From a virus: a stretch of DNA of 42,773 nt. Each line of letters begins with the position of its first letter. Within the stretch, counting starts at the first letter, position 1. This document shows, in pieces, positions 2,117 through 41,171 of the stretch. The translations under genes were made by a program, and so were the position numbers. Below the pieces are notes generated by a model. That model did not search any database. It saw only the letters and a program-made list of their open reading frames with translations, and was not told the origin of the DNA. Location of the stretch: IMG/VR virus record IMGVR_UViG_3300030222_000011, positions 1-42,773 of that record; one strand, 5' to 3'.

Positions 2117-2152
2117 AAGATTGAAAACGTAGAAAGTTTTCTGGAGGACATC

Positions 2153-3223
2153 ATGAAGCGTTTCATAGCACTCTTGATTGCCTTTTCACCCACTATAGGC
2201 TTTGCTCAAGAATTAGACCATTGCGTCGCAGTTTATGAAACCGCAACTAGGAATTTACAGATATCGGAAGCCTCCTACAGTAGTTTGAATACCGTCTTTG
2301 ATCAATACTGTGAATCTAACGGTGAATTCAAAGATAGCGCAAAATCAGGCGGCCTTGAGGCTGTCATAAAATCGGTTCCGATTTCGCTCTCCGGAAATGC
2401 GTCATCTATAGAAGAACGTTTCCAGAATTTTTGCAGCAATTATTCCGGTATCAGATACAATAGTGCTGCGTCCCGAGCCCTTGCGGATACCGTCGTGGTC
2501 GATGCATTGAACGCGTTCAACAATTGCATCGAAATAAGCTCTCGTGGCGTAATTATAAGTCATTCCTCTCCCACGGGTCTTGACGGAACATTCAATTTCA
2601 CTTTTCGAGCAAATATCAATTATGAACTTCAAGGGGTACAAGAGGGAAGGAACATTGAATGTGAGATTAGAGACCCTCTTGACGGAAAGATGATTCAAGC
2701 GGATACGAGCACTACTCTGAAATTTGACAAGCCATTTAGTGCATTTTGTAAACGAAAACCGGAAGGTAGTCCTTCTGGTAAATTTTTCCCAAGAACTAGT
2801 GTTGTATTCGCTTCAAATCAAGGAAACTATTCTGTGTTGTATCCTGCAGAGGAAGTGTTAGATGTGGAATTTGCCTCCGTCTTGGACAGACGAATAAGTA
2901 ATGCGGAAGATCGTTTAATTGCCTTATCTAACAACCTAGAAACCAACATAGTGAAGCTTGAGGAGCGAGTGAATGACGTTTCTTCCGCTTCGAGCGCATT
3001 GGTGAGCGAGCTTCGGACCGCAATTGATTTCAAAGTCTTTAAAGTCCTAAGGGCCGATAGCCAGCCTGGGGAACGCGACTACGCACATGTGGGATGCGCC
3101 GACCCTACGGCATGGGTCCAGAGCCAGTGTCCAGGATACTCCGTTGAAATGATTGTACTTAGTAGTCGTTCGGGCGGTCATTGCGGCTTCACTCACTATC
3201 TGGGTATCTGTAAAAGAAAGTAA
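2153..3223 (+). CDS. AT-rich accessory gene: secreted protein with coiled coil and Cys-containing C-terminus
   Basis: The start at 2153 has GGAGG upstream and gives a clean Sec signal peptide (MKRFIALLIAFSPTIGFA, then QE). The product is 356 aa. The mature protein has an N-terminal domain with several cysteines, a middle beta-rich domain, a coiled-coil stretch around residues 245-300, and a C-terminal domain with spaced Cys (VGCADPTAW, SQCPGY, GHCGFTH, GICKRK). The tail may bind a ligand or surface structure. The region is much richer in A/T than its neighbours, a sign of recent transfer. I do not recognise the family. Cargo exported to the periplasm or cell surface is the most that can be said. 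Confidence 0.75.
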   Translation: MKRFIALLIAFSPTIGFAQELDHCVAVYETATRNLQISEASYSSLNTVFDQYCESNGEFKDSAKSGGLEAVIKSVPISLSGNASSIEERFQNFCSNYSGIRYNSAASRALADTVVVDALNAFNNCIEISSRGVIISHSSPTGLDGTFNFTFRANINYELQGVQEGRNIECEIRDPLDGKMIQADTSTTLKFDKPFSAFCKRKPEGSPSGKFFPRTSVVFASNQGNYSVLYPAEEVLDVEFASVLDRRISNAEDRLIALSNNLETNIVKLEERVNDVSSASSALVSELRTAIDFKVFKVLRADSQPGERDYAHVGCADPTAWVQSQCPGYSVEMIVLSSRSGGHCGFTHYLGICKRK

Positions 3224-3672: not shown

Positions 3673-3906
3673 TCATCCCGGCGCCATCCCGCCACCGGTT
3701 GGAACGATGCGCACGCCACACGGCCGACTGCCGCAGCGCGTGCAGCGCAGGCGCGGCGCCAGGTCCGCGTGCATGACCGAGAGGTCGCGGCCGTAGCGCG
3801 ACGCCAGCGCCTCGAGATCGAGCGGCGCCATGTGCCAGCAATCGCGGCCATGGCACACCGCCCAGAGCGCGGATCCATCCTCGAGCAGATCGCCGATCGT
3901 GTTCAT
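3673..3906 (-). CDS. Small cysteine-rich phage-associated protein (putative zinc-binding)
   Basis: A 77-aa protein with a Cys pair in CHGRDCWH near the N-terminus and CTRCGSRPC near the C-terminus, consistent with a small zinc-ribbon fold. The body LASRYGRDLSVMHADLAPRL resembles small proteins often annotated as hypothetical in alphaproteobacterial genomes and phages. It lies just beyond the late terminator at 3937-3973, on the same strand. Function unknown; DNA- or protein-binding is inferred only from the cysteines. Confidence 0.7.
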   Translation of the reverse strand: MNTIGDLLEDGSALWAVCHGRDCWHMAPLDLEALASRYGRDLSVMHADLAPRLRCTRCGSRPCGVRIVPTGGGMAPG

Positions 3907-3936
3907 GGGACAGGAATATGATCGCAGCCGCCGACA

Positions 3937-3973
3937 AGAAAAGCCCCGCGTGCCGGTCGGGGCGCGCGGGGCT
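3937..3973 (-). terminator. Rho-independent terminator of the late operon
   Basis: Perfect 8-bp arms GCCCCGCG (3943-3950) and CGCGGGGC (3965-3972) enclose a 14-nt loop. Read on the minus strand the stem is followed by TTTTCTT. It sits just after the last lysis-cassette gene and is the first clear stop signal below the late genes that begin at 29138. Confidence 0.8.
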
Positions 3974-4103
3974 TGGCGTCGATGTTGGGTTACAGGTTAT
4001 CGGGCGGGTCAGGCCCGTGGATCAGACACCGTTTGAAGGCTTCCTGTCGGCCCGGTTGATCGTCGCCCGGTGGCGGCGGGCCGCACCGCGCGGGCGGTTC
4101 GGA

Positions 4104-4859: not shown

Positions 4860-5046
4860 TGGTGATCTCCCTTGCGGCGCGATTGGTTGCTTCGGTCAGT
4901 TCGGCGCGGGCGTCCGCCTCGCCGGCCGCATGCTGCGCCGGCCCGTGCACGAACACGGCCCAGCCCAGCGCGACGGAAAAGCCGGCGGCGAGCGCCAGCG
5001 CGCCCACGGCGGCGAGCCGGAACGGCTCGGTCAGACGATCGATCAT
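4771..5046 (-). CDS. Inner-membrane protein, putative i-spanin (Rz-like)
   Basis: 91 aa. One N-terminal helix (about residues 10-34) is followed by a periplasmic helical stretch (ARAELTEATNRAAREI) and a C-terminal Cys pair around RRQCNERGG and GECVR. The start overlaps the stop of the muramidase gene as ATGA. The downstream lipoprotein gene begins within it in a different frame. Topology, order after the endolysin and nesting all fit an i-spanin, though it is shorter than lambda Rz. Confidence 0.65.
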   Translation of the reverse strand: MIDRLTEPFRLAAVGALALAAGFSVALGWAVFVHGPAQHAAGEADARAELTEATNRAAREITNEADRARFLRRQCNERGGMYDFVSGECVR

Positions 5047-6131
5047 GCGTAGCCCTCCAGGCCCGTGCGCGTGCGCCGCTTCTGCCAGACGCGCCAGCCG
5101 GCCCAGGCCAGCCCGCCAAGCGCCAGGCCGACCGAAAGGATCGTTAGCGCGAGAAGCACCTGGTCGGGCAGCGCATGGCCGGTGTTCTGCAGCGTGTCGT
5201 CGACCGTGCGCTTGGCCGTCTCGAGCGCGGCGCCGCCGCCGACACCGACGCCGACGCCGACGCCCACGTCGGGATCGCGGGTGACCGGCACGTCGCCGGG
5301 CGCCTCATCCGGCCGCTGGCGATAGCGGGCCAGCGCGGCCATGGTTTCGGGGCCGGCGATGCCGTCGACGGAAAGGCCCTTGGCCGCCTGGAAGGCGCGC
5401 ACGGCATGCAGTGTCGCCGGCCCGAAATCGCCGTCGACCGGACCGGCGTCGAAGCCGGCGCGGCGCAACAGGGCCTGCAGCTCGCGCACCTTGCGGCCCT
5501 TCGAGCCGAGGCGCAGCATGCCGGCGGCCGGGCTCGCCGCAAGCCTGCCGCCGCTGTAGCGCGCATAAGCCTCCGCCATCTTCTCGTCATAGCGGTTCCG
5601 GCGATAAAGGCGCCCGTTATAGACCCGCGCGAAGCCGGCCCAGTCGCGCCGGCGCAGCTCGTCGAGCAGGCCGTTGCGACGGATGAACCGGACCATCAGC
5701 TCGACCTGGCCGGCAAGGTCGCGCCGCGCCATGGCGACCAGACCGTGCACGCTGGAAAAGCCGAGCGCTTTCCAATTGCCGCCCATCACCTGACCGACGC
5801 CGAAACTGGTCGATTCGAGCGCGGCCTCGGCGTCGATCCGCATCGCGCGCTCGAGCAGCGCCCAGCGCGCGGCCTGGGAGCGCGGGTTGCGCACCCCGCC
5901 GACCTTCGGGCTGGCCAGCCCCTGCCGGCGCGCCAGCGCGCGCTTCTCCCCGGTCAGCCGGTCGTCGAACCAGTGGCCCTCGAACCGGATCACGGGGCGC
6001 CATTCGCCGTCGACCATGGCGCCGGTGCGGCCGGCGCTTTCGACCTCGACGACGGCGAGCAGCGCCGCCGGCTCGATCCGGTGTTCGTTCGCGACACGGG
6101 TGATCGTGTCGACGGTTTGCGCGTCGAACAT
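5043..6131 (-). CDS. Endolysin: N-acetylmuramidase with peptidoglycan-binding domain and C-terminal membrane anchor
   Basis: Hydrolyses the glycan backbone of peptidoglycan for host lysis. Residues 1-180 match the N-acetylmuramidase family PF11860, with Glu31 in VEVESAG as likely catalytic residue and IRFEGHWF (Glu51). A PG_binding_1 domain follows at about 205-265 (LGSKGRKVRELQALLRRAGF). A VG-repeat linker (about 290-300) and a transmembrane helix (about 322-345, LLALTILSVGLALGGLAWAG) end the protein. ATG 6131 has GGAG 8 nt upstream; a TTG lies 15 nt earlier. A C-terminal anchor is unusual for an endolysin and may hold it inactive at the membrane until lysis. Its 5' end was copied downstream (see 7417-7509). 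Confidence 0.9.
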   Translation of the reverse strand: MFDAQTVDTITRVANEHRIEPAALLAVVEVESAGRTGAMVDGEWRPVIRFEGHWFDDRLTGEKRALARRQGLASPKVGGVRNPRSQAARWALLERAMRIDAEAALESTSFGVGQVMGGNWKALGFSSVHGLVAMARRDLAGQVELMVRFIRRNGLLDELRRRDWAGFARVYNGRLYRRNRYDEKMAEAYARYSGGRLAASPAAGMLRLGSKGRKVRELQALLRRAGFDAGPVDGDFGPATLHAVRAFQAAKGLSVDGIAGPETMAALARYRQRPDEAPGDVPVTRDPDVGVGVGVGVGGGAALETAKRTVDDTLQNTGHALPDQVLLALTILSVGLALGGLAWAGWRVWQKRRTRTGLEGYA

Positions 6132-6292
6132 GGCGGTCTCCAGCAAAGGGGGTGTCAGCCTGAAAGTAGACGTGTCAGTTTCGGCGTTTACAGATTGCCG
6201 CTTTATTGCGGAAATCGGTGGCTTGAGAGTCCAGCGGCCAGCGCATAGGAGTCGGGCATGCGAATATCCCTTCTTCTACTTGCGCTCGGCGC
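6016..6292. repeat. Left copy of a long direct repeat
   Basis: This segment contains the first codons of the muramidase gene, the intergenic region, the ribosome-binding site and the signal-peptide start of the secreted protein at 6258. It is nearly identical to 7394-7669, about 1377 bp away, with scattered substitutions and one or two small indels. It marks a tandem duplication whose unit was one intergenic region plus one secreted-protein gene. Confidence 0.9.
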
Positions 6293-7358
6293 AATTCTGT
6301 TCATGGCGATCCCCAGCCAAAGGGCCGAAAATATACCCGCCTGGCAGACATACTGCGCGGTTCCGCAGCGCAATGCAGGGGAGCCGGGCATCATCTCAGT
6401 CGAGCGCGTGGGGCGCGCATCGCCTGACATCCGATCCGGTCACCTGTTCGTTCACGATGGGCGGTTGCGGACCTGGGACGTTGCCAATGGCGATCAGTTC
6501 AGAGGCCGCGACATGAAGCAGGCCCAGCCGGTTCCTTGCCCCGGATTTTCCGCCTACGGCTGGTCTTTCACATACGGCGATGGTCAAGCGACGGCCTGCA
6601 AGGCCGGGACGTGTACGTCCATCGCCGTGCGCGATCGAACTCTCGCCTTCTCCTATGCCGCCCATGACGGGGCGGTCTTTGTCGGCACAAGCTTTGGCGA
6701 CGCTCTGCTGTTTCGTGATGGACAATGGTGCCGGATGGTCAGACAGGGCGATGAATGGGCCTGCCCCGACGAAGCAGCACCACCACCAACAAAGCCGTCG
6801 AACCAGTTCTACTCCTCAGCGATCTACGAAGGGCGCACGCTGGTCGGCGAATACCCGACCGGCAATTTGTTCGAGTTTGACGGTCGACGCGTTTTCCCTT
6901 CCGGCATCCCGAGACCGGTTGAGGGCTACGCGCTTGAAGCCCAGACGCTGATGCCCTTCTGCGGCTCGCTTCTGGTCGGCTACTGGCCCACGGGGACGAT
7001 CCATCGGTGGGACGGCAAGCGCTGGCATGAGCCGATCTCCCTGTTCAATGTGCCGGCAGACTATCCGCAGTTCAGCGACCATGCCGAAGGCGCCGGGCTT
7101 GTCGCAAACTTCTTTGGCCGGAGGGTGCCTTCCCTGGTCCCGCATGATGGCGAACTCTACGCTATCAGCGGAAGCAAAGGGGATTGGAACGCGCAGATCG
7201 ACAGCGGTTTGCCGCCATCGGTTTTCTCGGAGTACGGCGTTGTCTGGCGACTATCTTGTAGCAACCAGAGTGGAGTGGTACGGGCCTCCTATTCCGATGG
7301 CTCGCGGGTCGAACCAGACGCCTTCAGCATCGCCCCTGCCGATCGGCCATTGATCTGA
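6258..7358 (+). CDS. Secreted repeat-containing protein, copy 1 (possible beta-propeller)
   Basis: 366 aa with AGGAG 7 nt upstream of ATG 6258. A signal peptide (MRISLLLLALGAILFMAIPS) is followed by NIPAWQTYCAVP. The body carries spaced, similar blades: GDALLFRDGQWCRM, LVGEYPTGNLFEFDGRR, LVGYWPTGTIHRWDGKRW and FFGRRVPSLVPHDGELYA. The recurring YPTG/YWPTG plus FDG/WDG pattern suggests a beta-propeller. The gene is on the plus strand between the endolysin and the tail spike, against the late operon, so it is likely independently expressed cargo. Its paralogue at 7635 keeps these motifs but has diverged elsewhere. Receptor masking or surface modification is a guess. Confidence 0.8.
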   Translation: MRISLLLLALGAILFMAIPSQRAENIPAWQTYCAVPQRNAGEPGIISVERVGRASPDIRSGHLFVHDGRLRTWDVANGDQFRGRDMKQAQPVPCPGFSAYGWSFTYGDGQATACKAGTCTSIAVRDRTLAFSYAAHDGAVFVGTSFGDALLFRDGQWCRMVRQGDEWACPDEAAPPPTKPSNQFYSSAIYEGRTLVGEYPTGNLFEFDGRRVFPSGIPRPVEGYALEAQTLMPFCGSLLVGYWPTGTIHRWDGKRWHEPISLFNVPADYPQFSDHAEGAGLVANFFGRRVPSLVPHDGELYAISGSKGDWNAQIDSGLPPSVFSEYGVVWRLSCSNQSGVVRASYSDGSRVEPDAFSIAPADRPLI

Positions 7359-7393
7359 CCATCGCACGGCTGAACGCCACTTCCCGCGTTACA

Positions 7394-7669
7394 ATGGCGC
7401 CGGTGCGGCCGGCGCTCTAGACCTCGACGACGGCCAGCAGCGCCGCCGGCTCGATCCGGTGTTCGTTGGCGACACGTTTGATCGTGTCGACGGTTTCGGC
7501 GTCGAACATGGCGGTCTCCAGAAGGGATGTGTCAGCCTGAAAGTAAACGTGTCAGTTTCGGCGTTTACAGATCGCCGCTTTATTGCGGAAATCGGTGGCT
7601 TGAGAGTCCAGCGGCCAGCGCATAGGAGTCGGGGATGCGAATATCCCTGCTTCTACTTGCGCTCGGCGC
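7394..7669. repeat. Right copy of the long direct repeat
   Basis: Counterpart of 6016-6292. It retains the endolysin ATG, its ribosome-binding site, the intergenic region and the first codons of the secreted-protein gene at 7635. On the left side it ends inside the muramidase coding sequence, showing which way the duplication junction was formed. Confidence 0.9.
7417..7509 (-). pseudogene. Duplicated 5' fragment of the endolysin gene
   Basis: From ATG 7509 the frame reads MFDAETVDTIKRVANEHR and on to LLAVVEV, almost the same as the first 30 residues of the intact muramidase, then stops at TAG (7417-7419) where the intact gene has the Glu31 codon of VEVESAG. Homology continues past the stop to about 7394 and then ends. 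It is a by-product of the tandem duplication and cannot make a functional enzyme, though its ribosome-binding site is intact and a 30-residue peptide could be made. Confidence 0.85.
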
Positions 7670-8678
7670 GATCCATTTCACTGCAGCATGCGCTGAGGAC
7701 AGGAGAACAATTCCGGCGTGGCAGACATATTGTGCGGTGCCAAACGATACATTCACCGGCGGTCAGGCCGGGACTGACCTGGACGTCGAGCCGGTGTTCG
7801 TTCTCGGCGAACGGTCGCATTCCATGTTCGCGTTTGCGGCAGATGACGGGATTCGGTTGCGCGACCTCAACTCAGGCCGACAGTGGCAGCTCCGATACGG
7901 CCGGTTCGAGACCGCACGTGCATTGCGATGCAAGCCGTTCGCGGCGTTCGGCGTAGAGGTTAGTCACTCCGATGATGCGGTCACCGCCTGCCGGGGCGAC
8001 AACTGCCAGTCGATCGAGATCAAGCAGGGTACGTTCGTGTTCGCCTACGCTGCCGCACGGTCGGCGATTGTTGCCATCACCAATTACGGTGACGCACTGC
8101 TCTTTCGCGATGACCAATGGTGTCGAATGACCTGGTCGGAGGACCGCTACACCTGCATCGGCAACGAACCGATGGTCACGGAGCCACGCAAGATGCAGTT
8201 CTATTCCTCGATCCGATACGACGGCGAGACATTGATGGGCGAGTGGCCAACCGGACGCCTGTTCGTCTTCGATGGCCGGACGATAGAGCCATGGTCCGAA
8301 CAGCCGCCGCACGTGAGCAAGGAAAGAACAGGTTTCGAAGCGCAGGCGATGGCCGTCTATTGCGGCGACCTTTATGTCGGGTACTGGCCGACCGGCGCGA
8401 TCTGGCGCCTTCACCGCCGGACGGGCGAGTGGAGCCGCATTGCACTGTTTCCCGATGCGGCCACGTTCTACCCGCATATTGACCGGCCGGCCGACGATCT
8501 GTCCGGTCGGTTCTTCGGACGGCGCGTGACCGCCCTGCTTCCACACGACGGCTCACTGTACGCCGCAACGTCAAATCTGCTCGGCTGGCACCGCGATCTG
8601 GACCAGTCCGTCGTCAGCGATATCGAGGCCGAGTTCTACGGCAAGACGCATCGTCTCACGGTCGACTGCACCCGCTAG
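7635..8678 (+). CDS. Secreted repeat-containing protein, copy 2 (possible beta-propeller)
   Basis: 347 aa and clearly paralogous to the protein at 6258. The signal peptide start MRISLLLLALGAI, the segment IPAWQTYCAVP and the blade motifs GDALLFRDDQWCRM, LMGEWPTGRLFVFDGR, YVGYWPTGAIW and FFGRRVTALLPHDGSLYA are kept. The loops between them and both ends of the mature protein differ strongly. The upstream 250 bp is nearly identical to copy 1, so both genes should share regulation. The last codon overlaps the convergent tail-spike gene: both stops are TAG within the palindrome CTAG (8675-8678). Function unknown. Confidence 0.8.
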   Translation: MRISLLLLALGAIHFTAACAEDRRTIPAWQTYCAVPNDTFTGGQAGTDLDVEPVFVLGERSHSMFAFAADDGIRLRDLNSGRQWQLRYGRFETARALRCKPFAAFGVEVSHSDDAVTACRGDNCQSIEIKQGTFVFAYAAARSAIVAITNYGDALLFRDDQWCRMTWSEDRYTCIGNEPMVTEPRKMQFYSSIRYDGETLMGEWPTGRLFVFDGRTIEPWSEQPPHVSKERTGFEAQAMAVYCGDLYVGYWPTGAIWRLHRRTGEWSRIALFPDAATFYPHIDRPADDLSGRFFGRRVTALLPHDGSLYAATSNLLGWHRDLDQSVVSDIEAEFYGKTHRLTVDCTR

Positions 8679-11041
8679 ATGACATAGCTGATCTGGCAGG
8701 CCGTGATGCCCTTCGTCCCGCTGGCGGTGAAGCTGCCAAGCAGAGGCGTCGGATAGAGCGCGATGACGCCATTGGTTCCGATCACGCCGACGCCGCCATA
8801 CTCGTAGCCGCCATTGTCGATGAGCGTCACATTGACCTGGCGCGCGGCAGTGGGCCGAAACGATGTGGGCATGCCGGTGATCGAACAACTGGTGCTGTTC
8901 GATGTGCCGCTGATGGACGGGATGCTTAGGGTGACGGTATCTCCGTTTCGCTTGGCCGAGATGGTGCCCGTCGGGCTGCTTGTCAGCCCGGTCATCGTTC
9001 CCGTGAAGGTCTGCGCGGTGAAGCCCTTGTTTCCAGCTTCCGACACAAGCGTGTCGGCCGAGCCGGCGTTCGACACAAGGGCAACCGCACTGCCCGCCTG
9101 AGAACAGTTTTCGATCCTCGCGGCGACCGTTCCCGCAACCGAATCGCGCCGCAACAGGGCAGTCGAGAGTTCGGCCGCATGGCAGTCCCGAATAACGATG
9201 TGCTCGGCCGGGAAGCCGGATGTGTCGCGCAGGCCCGAATGCTCAATAATGGCGCCGGGCGCAACGCCGCCATGCGAGACATTCTCAACAATGGTCGGCG
9301 AGGCCTGATGCGATGCCGTGTGCGTGCGAAGCACGATCGAATCCATGGCAGCGGTGCCGGTCTCGGCGTAGCCGCGCATGCCGGAAACCCTCAGTCCGCC
9401 ATGAACGTAGTTGCCAATGGTGCCCGAGACGATCTTCTCGACCGAATGCCCGTCGTGATGATAGGTGAGTTCTTCCGCAACGCCGTCGCCGTACTGGAAG
9501 TCGACTTCCATGAAACCGCGCCCGGTCGAGTTCCCCGTCGTCCGGATGAAGTGGCTTCCGCGAATACGGCAATTGGTCTTGGCGAACTTGAGCGACCTAC
9601 CCCAGCAGTTCTTGAACGTGCCGCCATTGATCCGCGCAAAACCATCGTAGCCTGCCGACGTTGCGGGCGGCACGCCGAAGATCTGAATGCCGTCCTGGTC
9701 ATAGATGTAGTCGGCATCTTCCGAATAGACATCCTCTATCCATGGATCATCAATCGTAACATCGCGAGCCTCGGCACTACCTGCATTGAGGATCGCGATG
9801 CCGTGAACCCCGATGGATGCCTGGACGCCCGCATTCACCGCAAGCTTGACGCCTTTCACATACGGCCGCACCAGATGAAGGGATTCGAAACCGCCATCAA
9901 TCCAGATGCCGAACCCGCCGACGTGATCGGTCCCCGACCGGTAGACGTTGATCGCGCCGATATGCTCTCCATAGCCGCGCCCGATGTCGGCCGCCGTCAT
10001 GTCGGTCGCGGCCGTGTTGCGGATCACCAGCCCGTTATAGGCCCTGTTGTCCGCGTCGACCTTCCATCCCCGGAAATCGAAACCGTGCTCGTCCACGATC
10101 AGGTCGACCGCTCGGGCGATCCCCGATACCGTGGTCAGCTTGATCGTCGCGCCATGTCCATAGATCACGGGCTTGCGGGTAAACGTGTAGTCGAGAAGCG
10201 CGCTGATCGCATAGGTCTTCTCGCCGAGATTGATCGGCACGCCGCTGGAATTGTGCTCGGCGAACACGGCTTCGAGCACGGAAAGATCATCCGTCGAACC
10301 GTCGCCGGCAGCACCGAAATCAGCGGGGTCGAGGAAGTATCGGTTGGGGTGAAGAAGCTCGTAGCCGTCCTCGGCAGCGTTGACGACGAGTTGCTTGCCG
10401 GCGTCACCGGACACTATGCTGGGCAGGTTGAGGCCGGCTGCCGCCGCTTCGGCCCTGTCGGCCGCCGCCTCGGCCGCCGCCTGGATCGCCGCGCTCGCCT
10501 GGTCGGACAGAAGCCGGAACGTCGATCCGGAAATCCGCCCGGTTATCTCGCTGCCGGCCGGCAGGCCGCCCGGCGCGATATCGTTGCCGGCCTTCGTCTC
10601 GACGGCAAGCGCCGGGCCGCCATTGAAGCTGACCGTCACCGGTCCGGTGTTGGCGAGCGCGATCGGCACGGTGATCAGCTGGGAGCCGTTGACGGGAAGC
10701 GCCGTCGTCGCCGCGATCGCGTTGGCCGTGCCGCCATCGTCGCTGGCCACCACGAAACTGTAGCCCGGCAGGTCCGCGACGCGGATCCATTCGCCGCTGC
10801 CCGAGGCGCCCGTCTTGCGATAGACGCCATCGTTGGCGGCACTATCGCCGATCACCAGCGCGCCCGCGTTCGCCGGATGGGCCAGGTCCGCCTCGAGGTC
10901 GGCGAGCGCGCCGTAGATGCGTTCGGAATAGACGGCCGAGGTGAACAGCCGCTCGACCTCGGTCATCCATGTGCGCAACCAGGACGGGTTGAACGTGGCG
11001 CCGCCGAAGATCGTCTCGGCGAGGCGGGTGAAGATACCCAT
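8675..11041 (-). CDS. Tail spike/fibre protein with pectate-lyase-like beta-helix
   Basis: 788 aa. The N-terminal ~100 residues (MGIFTRLAETIFGG) likely attach to the tail tip. A middle stretch near residue 200 is Ala-rich helical (AAIQAAAEAAADRAEAAAAG). From about residue 235 (DPADFGAAGDGSTDD) the sequence matches the start of the right-handed beta-helix found in pectate-lyase-superfamily tailspikes. The end (from about residue 670) is a separate beta domain with the SISGTSNSTSCSITG region. Such proteins recognise and often degrade surface polysaccharide. It is the last tail gene and the usual determinant of host range. Confidence 0.85.
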   Translation of the reverse strand: MGIFTRLAETIFGGATFNPSWLRTWMTEVERLFTSAVYSERIYGALADLEADLAHPANAGALVIGDSAANDGVYRKTGASGSGEWIRVADLPGYSFVVASDDGGTANAIAATTALPVNGSQLITVPIALANTGPVTVSFNGGPALAVETKAGNDIAPGGLPAGSEITGRISGSTFRLLSDQASAAIQAAAEAAADRAEAAAAGLNLPSIVSGDAGKQLVVNAAEDGYELLHPNRYFLDPADFGAAGDGSTDDLSVLEAVFAEHNSSGVPINLGEKTYAISALLDYTFTRKPVIYGHGATIKLTTVSGIARAVDLIVDEHGFDFRGWKVDADNRAYNGLVIRNTAATDMTAADIGRGYGEHIGAINVYRSGTDHVGGFGIWIDGGFESLHLVRPYVKGVKLAVNAGVQASIGVHGIAILNAGSAEARDVTIDDPWIEDVYSEDADYIYDQDGIQIFGVPPATSAGYDGFARINGGTFKNCWGRSLKFAKTNCRIRGSHFIRTTGNSTGRGFMEVDFQYGDGVAEELTYHHDGHSVEKIVSGTIGNYVHGGLRVSGMRGYAETGTAAMDSIVLRTHTASHQASPTIVENVSHGGVAPGAIIEHSGLRDTSGFPAEHIVIRDCHAAELSTALLRRDSVAGTVAARIENCSQAGSAVALVSNAGSADTLVSEAGNKGFTAQTFTGTMTGLTSSPTGTISAKRNGDTVTLSIPSISGTSNSTSCSITGMPTSFRPTAARQVNVTLIDNGGYEYGGVGVIGTNGVIALYPTPLLGSFTASGTKGITACQISYVI

Positions 11042-38169: not shown

Positions 38170-38856
38170 TCAGATCTTCGACAACTTTTCTCGAAGCTCT
38201 TCTGGCTTAACATTTCCCTGCTTCCATTCCTCAATGAGATGCAACAACGCTCCTATTCGTACCCTGAATCTATTTCTCAAAAGAAAGTTCGTAAGATATT
38301 CACCCTCTGAAATTCGTTTTAGATCCTCACTCACATTTATATCTTTTGCAAAAGAATCGGACTTAGATCGAACCAAATTTTTTGTGGCTCTAAACTTCAT
38401 ACAAGCAACTATTGTGTGGCGCACGGGATCAAGAAAAAGACTTAGCAATCGGGCAAGCGACGCCGCAATCAAGCCACCAATGAAAATCAGTACACTTCTG
38501 ATCTCCGGACTTCCCAGCCATCCACCCCCAATACTAGCTTCATATTTTACAACTGAGAGCTCGCCGCTATTCGATATCACCAACGCTCCAGTCGAAGCAT
38601 AATCCCTAAGGCGTGCTTCGTACAACGTGCAACTGTCAATGGTCTTCACTTCCTCAAACTCCGAAGTCACGGCACCATAAACAATGAACTGCGGGAGAAT
38701 TGAATCTTGGCATGAAATGAATTGCATTCTTATAGAATCACCAGACTTGCGAAACTGGACTGCATAGGCCCCGTCAGTTACCTTTGCGACAGATACACTT
38801 GTTTGAAGAAAAAACAAGAATGAAATTAATAGTACTTTTGTGTTAACTCGCGACAT
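38170..38856 (-). CDS. Membrane partner of the ATPase: periplasmic domain, membrane helix, cytoplasmic domain
   Basis: 228 aa, AT-rich. An N-terminal hydrophobic segment (about 7-24) is a signal peptide or first span. A periplasmic domain of about 95 residues with Cys50 and Cys76 follows. A strong helix (121-143, SVLIFIGGLIAASLARLLSL) leads to a charged cytoplasmic domain of about 85 residues ending EELREKLSKI. The start lies 31 nt inside the end of the ATPase gene; GGAGG stands 13 nt before ATG 38856. Operon overlap and topology suggest a membrane effector or sensor working with the ATPase. No known family recognised. Confidence 0.7.
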   Translation of the reverse strand: MSRVNTKVLLISFLFFLQTSVSVAKVTDGAYAVQFRKSGDSIRMQFISCQDSILPQFIVYGAVTSEFEEVKTIDSCTLYEARLRDYASTGALVISNSGELSVVKYEASIGGGWLGSPEIRSVLIFIGGLIAASLARLLSLFLDPVRHTIVACMKFRATKNLVRSKSDSFAKDINVSEDLKRISEGEYLTNFLLRNRFRVRIGALLHLIEEWKQGNVKPEELREKLSKI

Positions 38857-41021
38857 GGCGCAAACAAATCCTCCAACTTTGCGGCAAAGAGAGCTCGGAT
38901 TCGTCGCTCCACTTCGGCGTTCAAATACGTAAGCTCCGCACTACCTCTAGTTGAGTTTCTTACAGCTTGGATCTCCTCTCTAATTGTCGAGGTTGGCGGC
39001 TCAGACTGGTAGTACTTAGCACCCACGGCCTCAAGTCTCCTATAAACATTCGGCCACGTCTTCTTTTCAAAAACGAGCATTTCCTCAATCAAGATGGCAA
39101 ACATGAATGTCTGTCGACCTTTATCCTCCAAAATCTTCTGCAGACAGCTCCCGTAGTCTTCCTCATCGAATACCAAATATGAATAATCGGGATCCCTATA
39201 ATCAAAGTGGGACAACAAATCTGAAGGAAAAAGAACCTTCCAATCGTCAACACATAGCTGCAAATACTTAAACGAATCAGCAAGTTTATCAAGTAGAAAC
39301 TCACCCCTTTCGGTAATCTCGATGTGCTTTATGTAGCCGATCGAGCCTGATGATCCTTCCGCACCGACATCAACTGAAATCAACTCCGAGGTCGGCACTT
39401 CAAAGAGGCTGCTCAATATATACCGCACCAATGATTCGGAGTAGCCGCGGCCATTCCTTCCACAGAATACTCGAATTATATCGCCATCTGTTGTGAGGAT
39501 ATCCTTTCGAGCTTTCAAATAGGCAAGAATTAGCTTCTTAAGCCAGATTGTGTAAAGATGGTTGTCCTTGAAATCAGAGGGCACTCCAACTTCTTTACTT
39601 GGCGACGGCGCATTAATGAGATAGATATTTGGTACATTGCCAGAAAATTGCGTATATCTACGCCGACCAGCAAGCATGTAAGCAAGCATGGATGGGTAAT
39701 ACTGTTGCGTAAATCTCGAATTCAGATCTGATTTCTGCCCATCAAGAAATTCGAGCCACGAGAATTCGGCTATTTGATTGATCATATCTCTAAGCCCTTT
39801 TCGGCTTAGGCTCCATAGATCATCGAGAAGTGCCTGCCCAGGACCAGACCTCTGCTGATAGAGCTCTCTAAGCCTTCGGATCTGTTTCAGAAACTCGTCC
39901 TGCTTGGCAGCCTCCTTGACTGTGTTAGCGAGTTCTTCAAGTAGATCGAAACGCCTGCCAACCACCTCCTTGGCCCTCGATAGCTCAGGAGGCGCCAAGG
40001 TGAATAGACGCTCCTCAACACCCTCCAGAGGAACCTCATGATGCTGAGAAATCAAGAAGGCTATCGTGTCTTCGCGACATGCAAAGAGGACCGGGATTCC
40101 CAACCGCGACGAACTTCGGTCAGTCTGAAGCCAGAACATCTTGATGATCTCGACGATAGTCGCATGAGCACGACGAACCTGCTCTCGCTCCGGGTGTTGA
40201 TCACCACCTTCCGCAAAGAAGCCGCGGTCACCTAAGTGATAGAGGAAGTCAATATTATCTATGATTAGGAATACGCGCATAGCGTGTCTCTGGTGCAGCA
40301 AGCTGGTCAGATGAGCCAAGTTGGCGTCGATTTCTGATCGATCTGCCTCTCTTGGCAACCTACAGTCACGAGCCAACCGCTCAATCTGATCTCCGTTGAG
40401 AACACTATTATTCTTAAGAGTAGAGATAATACTTCGCTTTACGATTTCTAGTACCTCAAGGTCATCGGGTATGCCGTGATTGGCGCTAACGTCAAGATTG
40501 ACTTTTACAGGGACATATCCGTCCTTCTTGAGGCGAGAGATCTGTCTACAGATGAAATTACAGATGAAGGTTGTCTTTCCAATTCCAACTCGACCAATAA
40601 GAAAGCTCAGTAAGTTTTGGCCTTCGTAAGAACCGTGTGGTATTAGGCGGTCATACAACTCGTCATATGAAAGCGTAGGGTTATCATAGAGCTGACCTTG
40701 GTGAATTGTCGGCTCCATATAGTAATGACGATGATGATGGAACAGCCGAGAAACATGTTCCGGGTTTCCAGCGTCAACAGTGTTAGCCGCAATAAATTCA
40801 AAGTTTGCAGTGTCGTGATGAGAAAATACCGATTTCAGCATCGAGACAAACTGTGCGTCGTCGCTGTGAAACTTCTTTGCATTTCGAATGAAGGACTTAT
40901 GTGAACTTGTTTCCACACGACTAAACAGCTTCTTATTCTGAAAGCTTACAGCGTTTGATAAATCTCTAGCGAAGCTCTGTGGATCAATCATCGTATCATT
41001 TACTCGGCGAGATTGCGACAT
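38826..41021 (-). CDS. Large P-loop (AAA/STAND-like) ATPase of a cargo module
   Basis: 731 aa from ATG 41021 (a TTG lies 12 nt earlier; ATG 40991 also possible). An N-terminal domain of about 130 residues precedes Walker A GRVGIGKTT (143-151) and Walker B VFLIIDNIDF (250-259). PVLFACRED (310-318) is in the place of a sensor motif. The C-terminal 400 residues are helical with winged-helix-like segments (about 440-530) and no enzyme motif. Strong A/T bias and position between repressor and second operator mark it as lysogenic cargo. ATPase plus membrane partner resembles phage defence pairs, but the exact family is not recognised. Confidence 0.8.
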   Translation of the reverse strand: MSQSRRVNDTMIDPQSFARDLSNAVSFQNKKLFSRVETSSHKSFIRNAKKFHSDDAQFVSMLKSVFSHHDTANFEFIAANTVDAGNPEHVSRLFHHHRHYYMEPTIHQGQLYDNPTLSYDELYDRLIPHGSYEGQNLLSFLIGRVGIGKTTFICNFICRQISRLKKDGYVPVKVNLDVSANHGIPDDLEVLEIVKRSIISTLKNNSVLNGDQIERLARDCRLPREADRSEIDANLAHLTSLLHQRHAMRVFLIIDNIDFLYHLGDRGFFAEGGDQHPEREQVRRAHATIVEIIKMFWLQTDRSSSRLGIPVLFACREDTIAFLISQHHEVPLEGVEERLFTLAPPELSRAKEVVGRRFDLLEELANTVKEAAKQDEFLKQIRRLRELYQQRSGPGQALLDDLWSLSRKGLRDMINQIAEFSWLEFLDGQKSDLNSRFTQQYYPSMLAYMLAGRRRYTQFSGNVPNIYLINAPSPSKEVGVPSDFKDNHLYTIWLKKLILAYLKARKDILTTDGDIIRVFCGRNGRGYSESLVRYILSSLFEVPTSELISVDVGAEGSSGSIGYIKHIEITERGEFLLDKLADSFKYLQLCVDDWKVLFPSDLLSHFDYRDPDYSYLVFDEEDYGSCLQKILEDKGRQTFMFAILIEEMLVFEKKTWPNVYRRLEAVGAKYYQSEPPTSTIREEIQAVRNSTRGSAELTYLNAEVERRIRALFAAKLEDLFAPCRELTQKYY

Positions 41022-41171
41022 TTTGTTTGTCAAGATGGCTATATCACTGATGTTGAGTCAATGCTTGGAGCGGCCTCCACGTGGTAAGGTTCTTTAGACA
41101 GCAAGCATGCGATACGCGAGCATCAGTGAGACTTTCTGGACCGGGACTGCGGCGGTAGCTGTTCACTTGCG

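Follow-up and report, generated by a model that had tools for sequence, protein, structure and literature searches.

The window, an IMG/VR virus record analysed over its full length of 42,773 bases, carries two adjacent genes for putatively secreted proteins with a predicted beta-propeller fold, each preceded by a copy of the same flank. We suggest that the first of these, gene 1, is probably a foreign gene that was added in front of the resident gene 2 by recombination within the flank, which is now duplicated. Events of this kind are ordinary gene shuffling in viruses, and here neither version has yet been lost. The phage would thus have retained two alleles of one accessory gene, a resident and a foreign one, and the footprint, consisting of a duplicated flank and a dead stub of the neighbouring gene, is still visible. 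Contigs of relatives are referred to below by L numbers.

Results

The gene order is endolysin (−), gene 1 (+), gene 2 (+), and tail fibre (−). The intact endolysin (5043..6146, minus strand) contains an N-acetylmuramidase and a peptidoglycan-binding domain (Pfam Muramidase, E = 3e-50; PG_binding_1, E = 1.5e-20). Its 5' end forms the left part of flank copy A (6013..6294), which continues through an intergenic control region of 111 bases into the first ~12 codons of gene 1. Gene 1 (6258..7358, plus strand; 366 aa) is followed by a spacer (7359..7390), for which blastn-short gave no significant similarity to L021, L003, or the rest of the window. Flank copy B (7391..7671), seen in the repeat search and in the comparison with L003, has the corresponding parts, namely an endolysin stub, the control region between the genes, and ~12 codons from the start of gene 2. 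The stub (7391..7509, minus strand) is dead, as shown by its translation and by a three-way alignment with copy A and L003; it retains only ~39 endolysin codons, with an in-frame stop at codon 31, details that go beyond the initial annotation of this DNA. Gene 2 (7635..8678, plus strand; 347 aa) is a complete ORF with its own start, ribosome-binding-like site, and signal. The right-hand neighbour, both in the window and in L003, is a tail fibre gene (8675..11041, minus strand; PHROG tail fibre, E = 8e-54). The GC fraction is 0.61 for genes 1 and 2, 0.65 for the window, and 0.73 for the endolysin. Across the lysis region, a second likely secreted protein of 367 aa, without a family match, is encoded at 2120-3223 on the plus strand.

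The repeat search in the window found the pairs 6013-6143/7391-7521 and 6145-6303/7522-7680, each with 93% identity. This agrees with the initial annotation, which had described near-identical flanks, including the endolysin 5' end, at 6016-6292 and 7394-7669. The copies differ at 21 sites, about 7%, and share an exact match of 60 bases. A 31-base piece of the flank occurs in only two copies in the window (chance expectation, 0). The end of the near-identity at 6292 was also confirmed: in the change-point fit it ends after this position (2-log-unit range 6290-6295, log-likelihood gain 93.7), with an identity of 0.943 to the left and 0.475 to the right. The near-identity extends into the signal-peptide codons of both genes, and the breakpoint, J1 (6290..6295), marks the change from the shared flank and signal to what appears to be a foreign mature part. 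Past the breakpoint, the two genes are only about half identical at the DNA level, and an alignment of the proteins over 347 residues gives 42% identity (E = 3e-75), in keeping with the earlier description of proteins that differ strongly beyond the signal peptide. The divergence of the duplicated DNA is thus not uniform, as it would be after a recent tandem duplication, but breaks sharply at 6292.

The flank had been described as a conserved control region. The likeness of the two copies is real, but it reflects recent copying and not special conservation of the control region, because the dead endolysin stub differs as little (10 of 134 sites in the stub part vs. 6 of 111 in the intergenic part; Fisher p = 0.6). 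The heptamer GTGTCAG occurs twice, 20 bases apart, at 6152-6178 and 7529-7555, and the pair is kept in both copies and in L003. These paired units are possibly a regulator site. We also considered GTGTCAG as the end of an insertion sequence or transposon, but no match was found in plasmids, phages, 297 genomes, or other viral contigs, and this candidate was rejected. A palindrome, GTAAACG-N12-CGTTTAC, was rejected as a conserved operator, since it is perfect in copy B only. The flank gave no Rfam match to a structured RNA, and its single-strand folding is not unusual. A search of the flank for a sigma-70-like promoter was negative; promoters of alphaproteobacteria frequently deviate from the sigma-70 consensus.

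The virus contig L003 (IMGVR_UViG_3300027607_000109), which was recovered with gene 2, is ~95% identical in DNA to the window and is collinear with it on both sides (94-96%). It has one flank and gene 2 only (97% identity to gene 2 of the window), and the whole 18.8 kb record holds a single homologue. The window differs from this sister phage by an extra ~1.38 kb, which comprises gene 1 and the second flank. The divergence of 7% between flanks A and B is of the same order as the 4-6% divergence between the window and L003 elsewhere. In a three-way comparison of the flanks, summed over three parts, copy A has 13 private changes, copy B has 8, and L003 has 3, and the L003 flank is intermediate in sequence between A and B. 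This intermediate sequence would also fit an old two-gene arrangement, with flanks homogenised by gene conversion, and with gene 1 deleted in L003 when the flanks recombined; the 60-base exact match permits such recombination, and ongoing gene conversion would likewise keep the copies alike. However, both relatives, L003 and L021, have a single gene, copy B has drifted alone, with private changes that include the stop in the stub, and extra steps are needed. We consider this history unlikely, and we infer a gain of gene 1 in the window phage rather than a loss in L003. Elsewhere in the alignment, at 3684-4100 of the window, the similarity to L003 falls to 86% and is fragmented; because of this drop, the region appears to be a second variable spot, beyond the small genes that adjoin the endolysin.

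Could the extra copy result from misassembly? The window is an IMG/VR virus record from a metagenomic contig, and the 60-base exact repeat is a possible crossing point for an assembler. However, the second junction, J2 (7391), has no shared word or repeat at which a mis-join could occur, the copies differ at 21 sites, and the stub with its stop codon must adjoin gene 1 in some real genome. Thus, an assembly artefact is very improbable.

The closest relative of gene 1 was found in a contig of a Tepidamorphaceae MAG (L021), in a prophage-like region with one homologue located between a phage-type lysozyme and tail genes. The L021 protein is 67% identical to the gene 1 protein overall and 70% in the mature part, vs. 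about 40% to the gene 2 protein, and its signal peptide is unlike that of gene 1. At sites where gene 2 and L003 differ from L021, codons 1-10 of gene 1 match gene 2 by 15:0, while from codon ~20 on the informative sites are mostly of the L021 type. Because the affinity switches along the gene from the gene 2 type to the L021 type, gene 1 appears to be a mosaic, in which the flank and codons 1 to ~12-14 come from this phage group and the mature part from a foreign lineage. With the root of the four sequences placed between the two groups, the split of genes 1 and 2 would predate that of gene 1 and L021. The two genes of the window are therefore not each other's closest relatives, gene 1 being nearer to L021 than to gene 2 (42-44%), and the sister phage is single-copy; these results speak against the tandem duplication of the genes that the initial annotation had claimed. 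A variant of that idea is a tandem duplication of the endolysin 5' end, flank, and gene 2, followed by replacement of the mature part of the first copy with the foreign allele. This would yield an identical final order and mosaic, but it requires two events where one suffices, and the region behind gene 1 showed no sequence from gene 2. We regard it as improbable.

In the 20 kb around the L021 homologue, no other resemblance to the window was found. At 8384-16533 of L021, genes for a GTA TIM-barrel tail protein, another tail protein, the propeller protein, and the phage lysozyme lie in a row, and this region may represent a prophage or else a GTA-like element.

How widespread is the family? 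Scans of viral contigs with the genes and the flank found L003 only, scans of phages and plasmids found none, and in the scans of genome contigs L021 was the sole relative. Profile searches of 8 genomes of the family, 397 of the order, and 385 of the class, the last two sets being samples of the genomes available, found only the genome of L021 itself. There are thus three homologue-bearing contigs (the window, L003, and L021), one of which is a recombinant. The donor type, a single-copy flank joined to gene 1, was not seen among these three. A comparison of relatives for the number and variety of cassettes had been proposed; L003 and L021 have one gene each.

For the mature parts of genes 1 and 2, pS is 0.71, which is saturated, and dN is about 0.64-0.66, giving a dN/dS of about 0.3. 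The saturated synonymous sites contrast with the flank copies, which are ~7% apart. Between gene 2 and its L003 counterpart there are 12 synonymous and 12 non-synonymous changes, with dN/dS of 0.26-0.31. The non-synonymous changes are fewer than expected (Fisher p = 0.006), showing that gene 2 is under purifying selection. One of two options in the initial annotation, a recent tandem duplication after which the mature parts came under strong diversifying selection, would leave near-identical flanks beside very different mature parts, as observed. However, it is hardly credible in view of the 70% amino acid identity of the gene 1 mature part to L021 vs. 42% to gene 2, the saturation of synonymous sites, the low dN/dS on which that option was to be judged, the purifying selection on gene 2, and the dead stub, whose conservation equals that of the control region. 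The sequences give no sign of diversifying selection, in a test that is limited by saturation and by the number of sequences, only four. This is a caution that near-identical flanks next to divergent genes need not imply diversifying selection. A diversity-generating retroelement would not fit either, since the changes affect about half of the bases along the entire gene, unlike the pattern of such an element.

Discussion

In the history that we propose, the spot between the endolysin and tail fibre genes would be occupied by an accessory (moron) gene that encodes a secreted beta-propeller protein and is read from an intergenic region of its own, in the direction opposite to the late genes. 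The ancestral state would be that of the sister phage, with gene 2 only. A gene 1 allele from a different phage lineage would then have been inserted before gene 2, with its mature part joined to the flank of this group at J1 (~6292), within the signal-peptide codons, and the other end of the inserted piece connected at J2 (7391) to endolysin codon ~40. The flank and signal start would thereby be present twice, gene 2 would remain intact downstream with its own control region, and the same event would leave the truncated endolysin stub between genes 1 and 2. The geometry would be that of a single crossover between a piece with the flank and gene 1 and the resident flank and gene 2. The route might have been, for example, a circle of ~1.38 kb, as the gene order is compatible with a circular intermediate, or an unequal exchange between two phages. 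The simplest account would be recombination between two related phages, one with the flank and gene 1 and the other with the flank and gene 2, so the donor presumably already carried the flank joined to gene 1.

A circular intermediate has been proposed for the displacement of Rhs C-terminal regions (Jackson et al. 2009, PMC2935791). The proposed event is like Rhs-type displacement (PMC2935791) in that the conserved 5' part exists twice, a variant gained by lateral transfer is fused to it, and the older variant is shifted farther downstream along with a piece of that conserved part. Here, the same conserved 5' part is indeed found before both variants (flanks A and B, 93%). However, this shared part is made up of a control region, a signal start, and part of the adjacent endolysin gene, rather than a long core domain. 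Furthermore, the displaced gene 2 is complete with its own start and is not a headless fragment, and the variants are homologous, whereas Rhs tips are unrelated.

The locus also resembles phage mosaicism and moron genes, in having its own intergenic region, a lower GC content, a strand opposite to that of the late genes, and a position that is variable between phages. In mosaicism near lysis and tail genes, one variant usually replaces another. In the window, by contrast, both variants are retained side by side, and the junction lies inside signal-peptide codons.

The second option in the initial annotation, exchange of cassettes by recombination at the conserved flank, holds as far as a single recombination is concerned, which fits the sharp breakpoint, the change in affinity, and the single-copy sister; repeated exchange does not follow from three contigs with one recombinant. 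It is rather unlikely that exchange recurs at the flank with the signal start, with related phages swapping and stacking envelope-acting propeller variants there. If it did, a single prophage would express several variants simultaneously, as a match to competing phages or hosts.

What is the function of the two proteins? Gene 1 gave no match in Pfam, PHROGs, NCBIfam, or PADLOC, and gene 2 gave no useful match in these databases, only phrog_32328 (function unknown) with E = 0.04. A sequence search of the PDB gave nothing useful. Both proteins have a hydrophobic N-terminus after MR, which we read from the sequence as an export signal, and a possible lipobox (TAAC) is present in gene 2 and in L003 but absent from gene 1. 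The AlphaFold models of both proteins are beta-propellers of moderate confidence, with four-stranded blades arranged in a circle, a pTM of 0.70, and mean pLDDT of 61 and 65. The top VIA-align matches are to streptogramin B/virginiamycin B lyase, with Z = 15.8 (rmsd 4.0, 234 aligned) and Z = 14.3 (rmsd 4.2, 231 aligned). A beta-propeller is thus predicted for both proteins, as a fold and not as a function, with a blade count that is uncertain at the confidence of the models. These proteins would belong to a rare and unnamed family of secreted propellers, encoded between the tail fibre and endolysin genes of alphaproteobacterial phages.

We tentatively suggest that the proteins may be lysogenic-conversion factors at the host envelope, acting, for example, in receptor masking or superinfection exclusion, although we would put the chances of this below even. 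A role at the envelope is the leading guess because the tail fibre gene adjoins and because distant phages carry plausible envelope or carbohydrate genes at this place. In distant phages with a related endolysin, the adjoining gene encodes an acyltransferase, a Kelch-like secreted protein, a GH43-like protein, or a C5-epimerase, all of which are plausible as envelope or carbohydrate genes. Known superinfection-exclusion proteins, Cor of phi80 and N15 (PMC11436027) and Ltp of TP-J34 (PMC3952083), are similar in being exported and prophage-encoded, and gene 2 has a possible lipobox and adjoins the tail fibre gene. However, the proteins of the window are predicted beta-propellers of ~35 kDa. We know of no sequence relation between Cor or Ltp and these proteins.

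The acyltransferase, Kelch-like, GH43-like, and C5-epimerase genes are found upstream of the endolysin (about 3-6 kb) in L007, L008, L009, L011, and L015, and in L009 the spot beside the endolysin holds an apparent toxin–antitoxin pair. Farther away in the window, a 735-aa gene at 38826-41033 on the minus strand has a weak match to an AAA ATPase and to no PADLOC family. Its GC3 of 0.48 is much lower than that of the rest of the phage, and it is possibly a recent accessory or defence gene.
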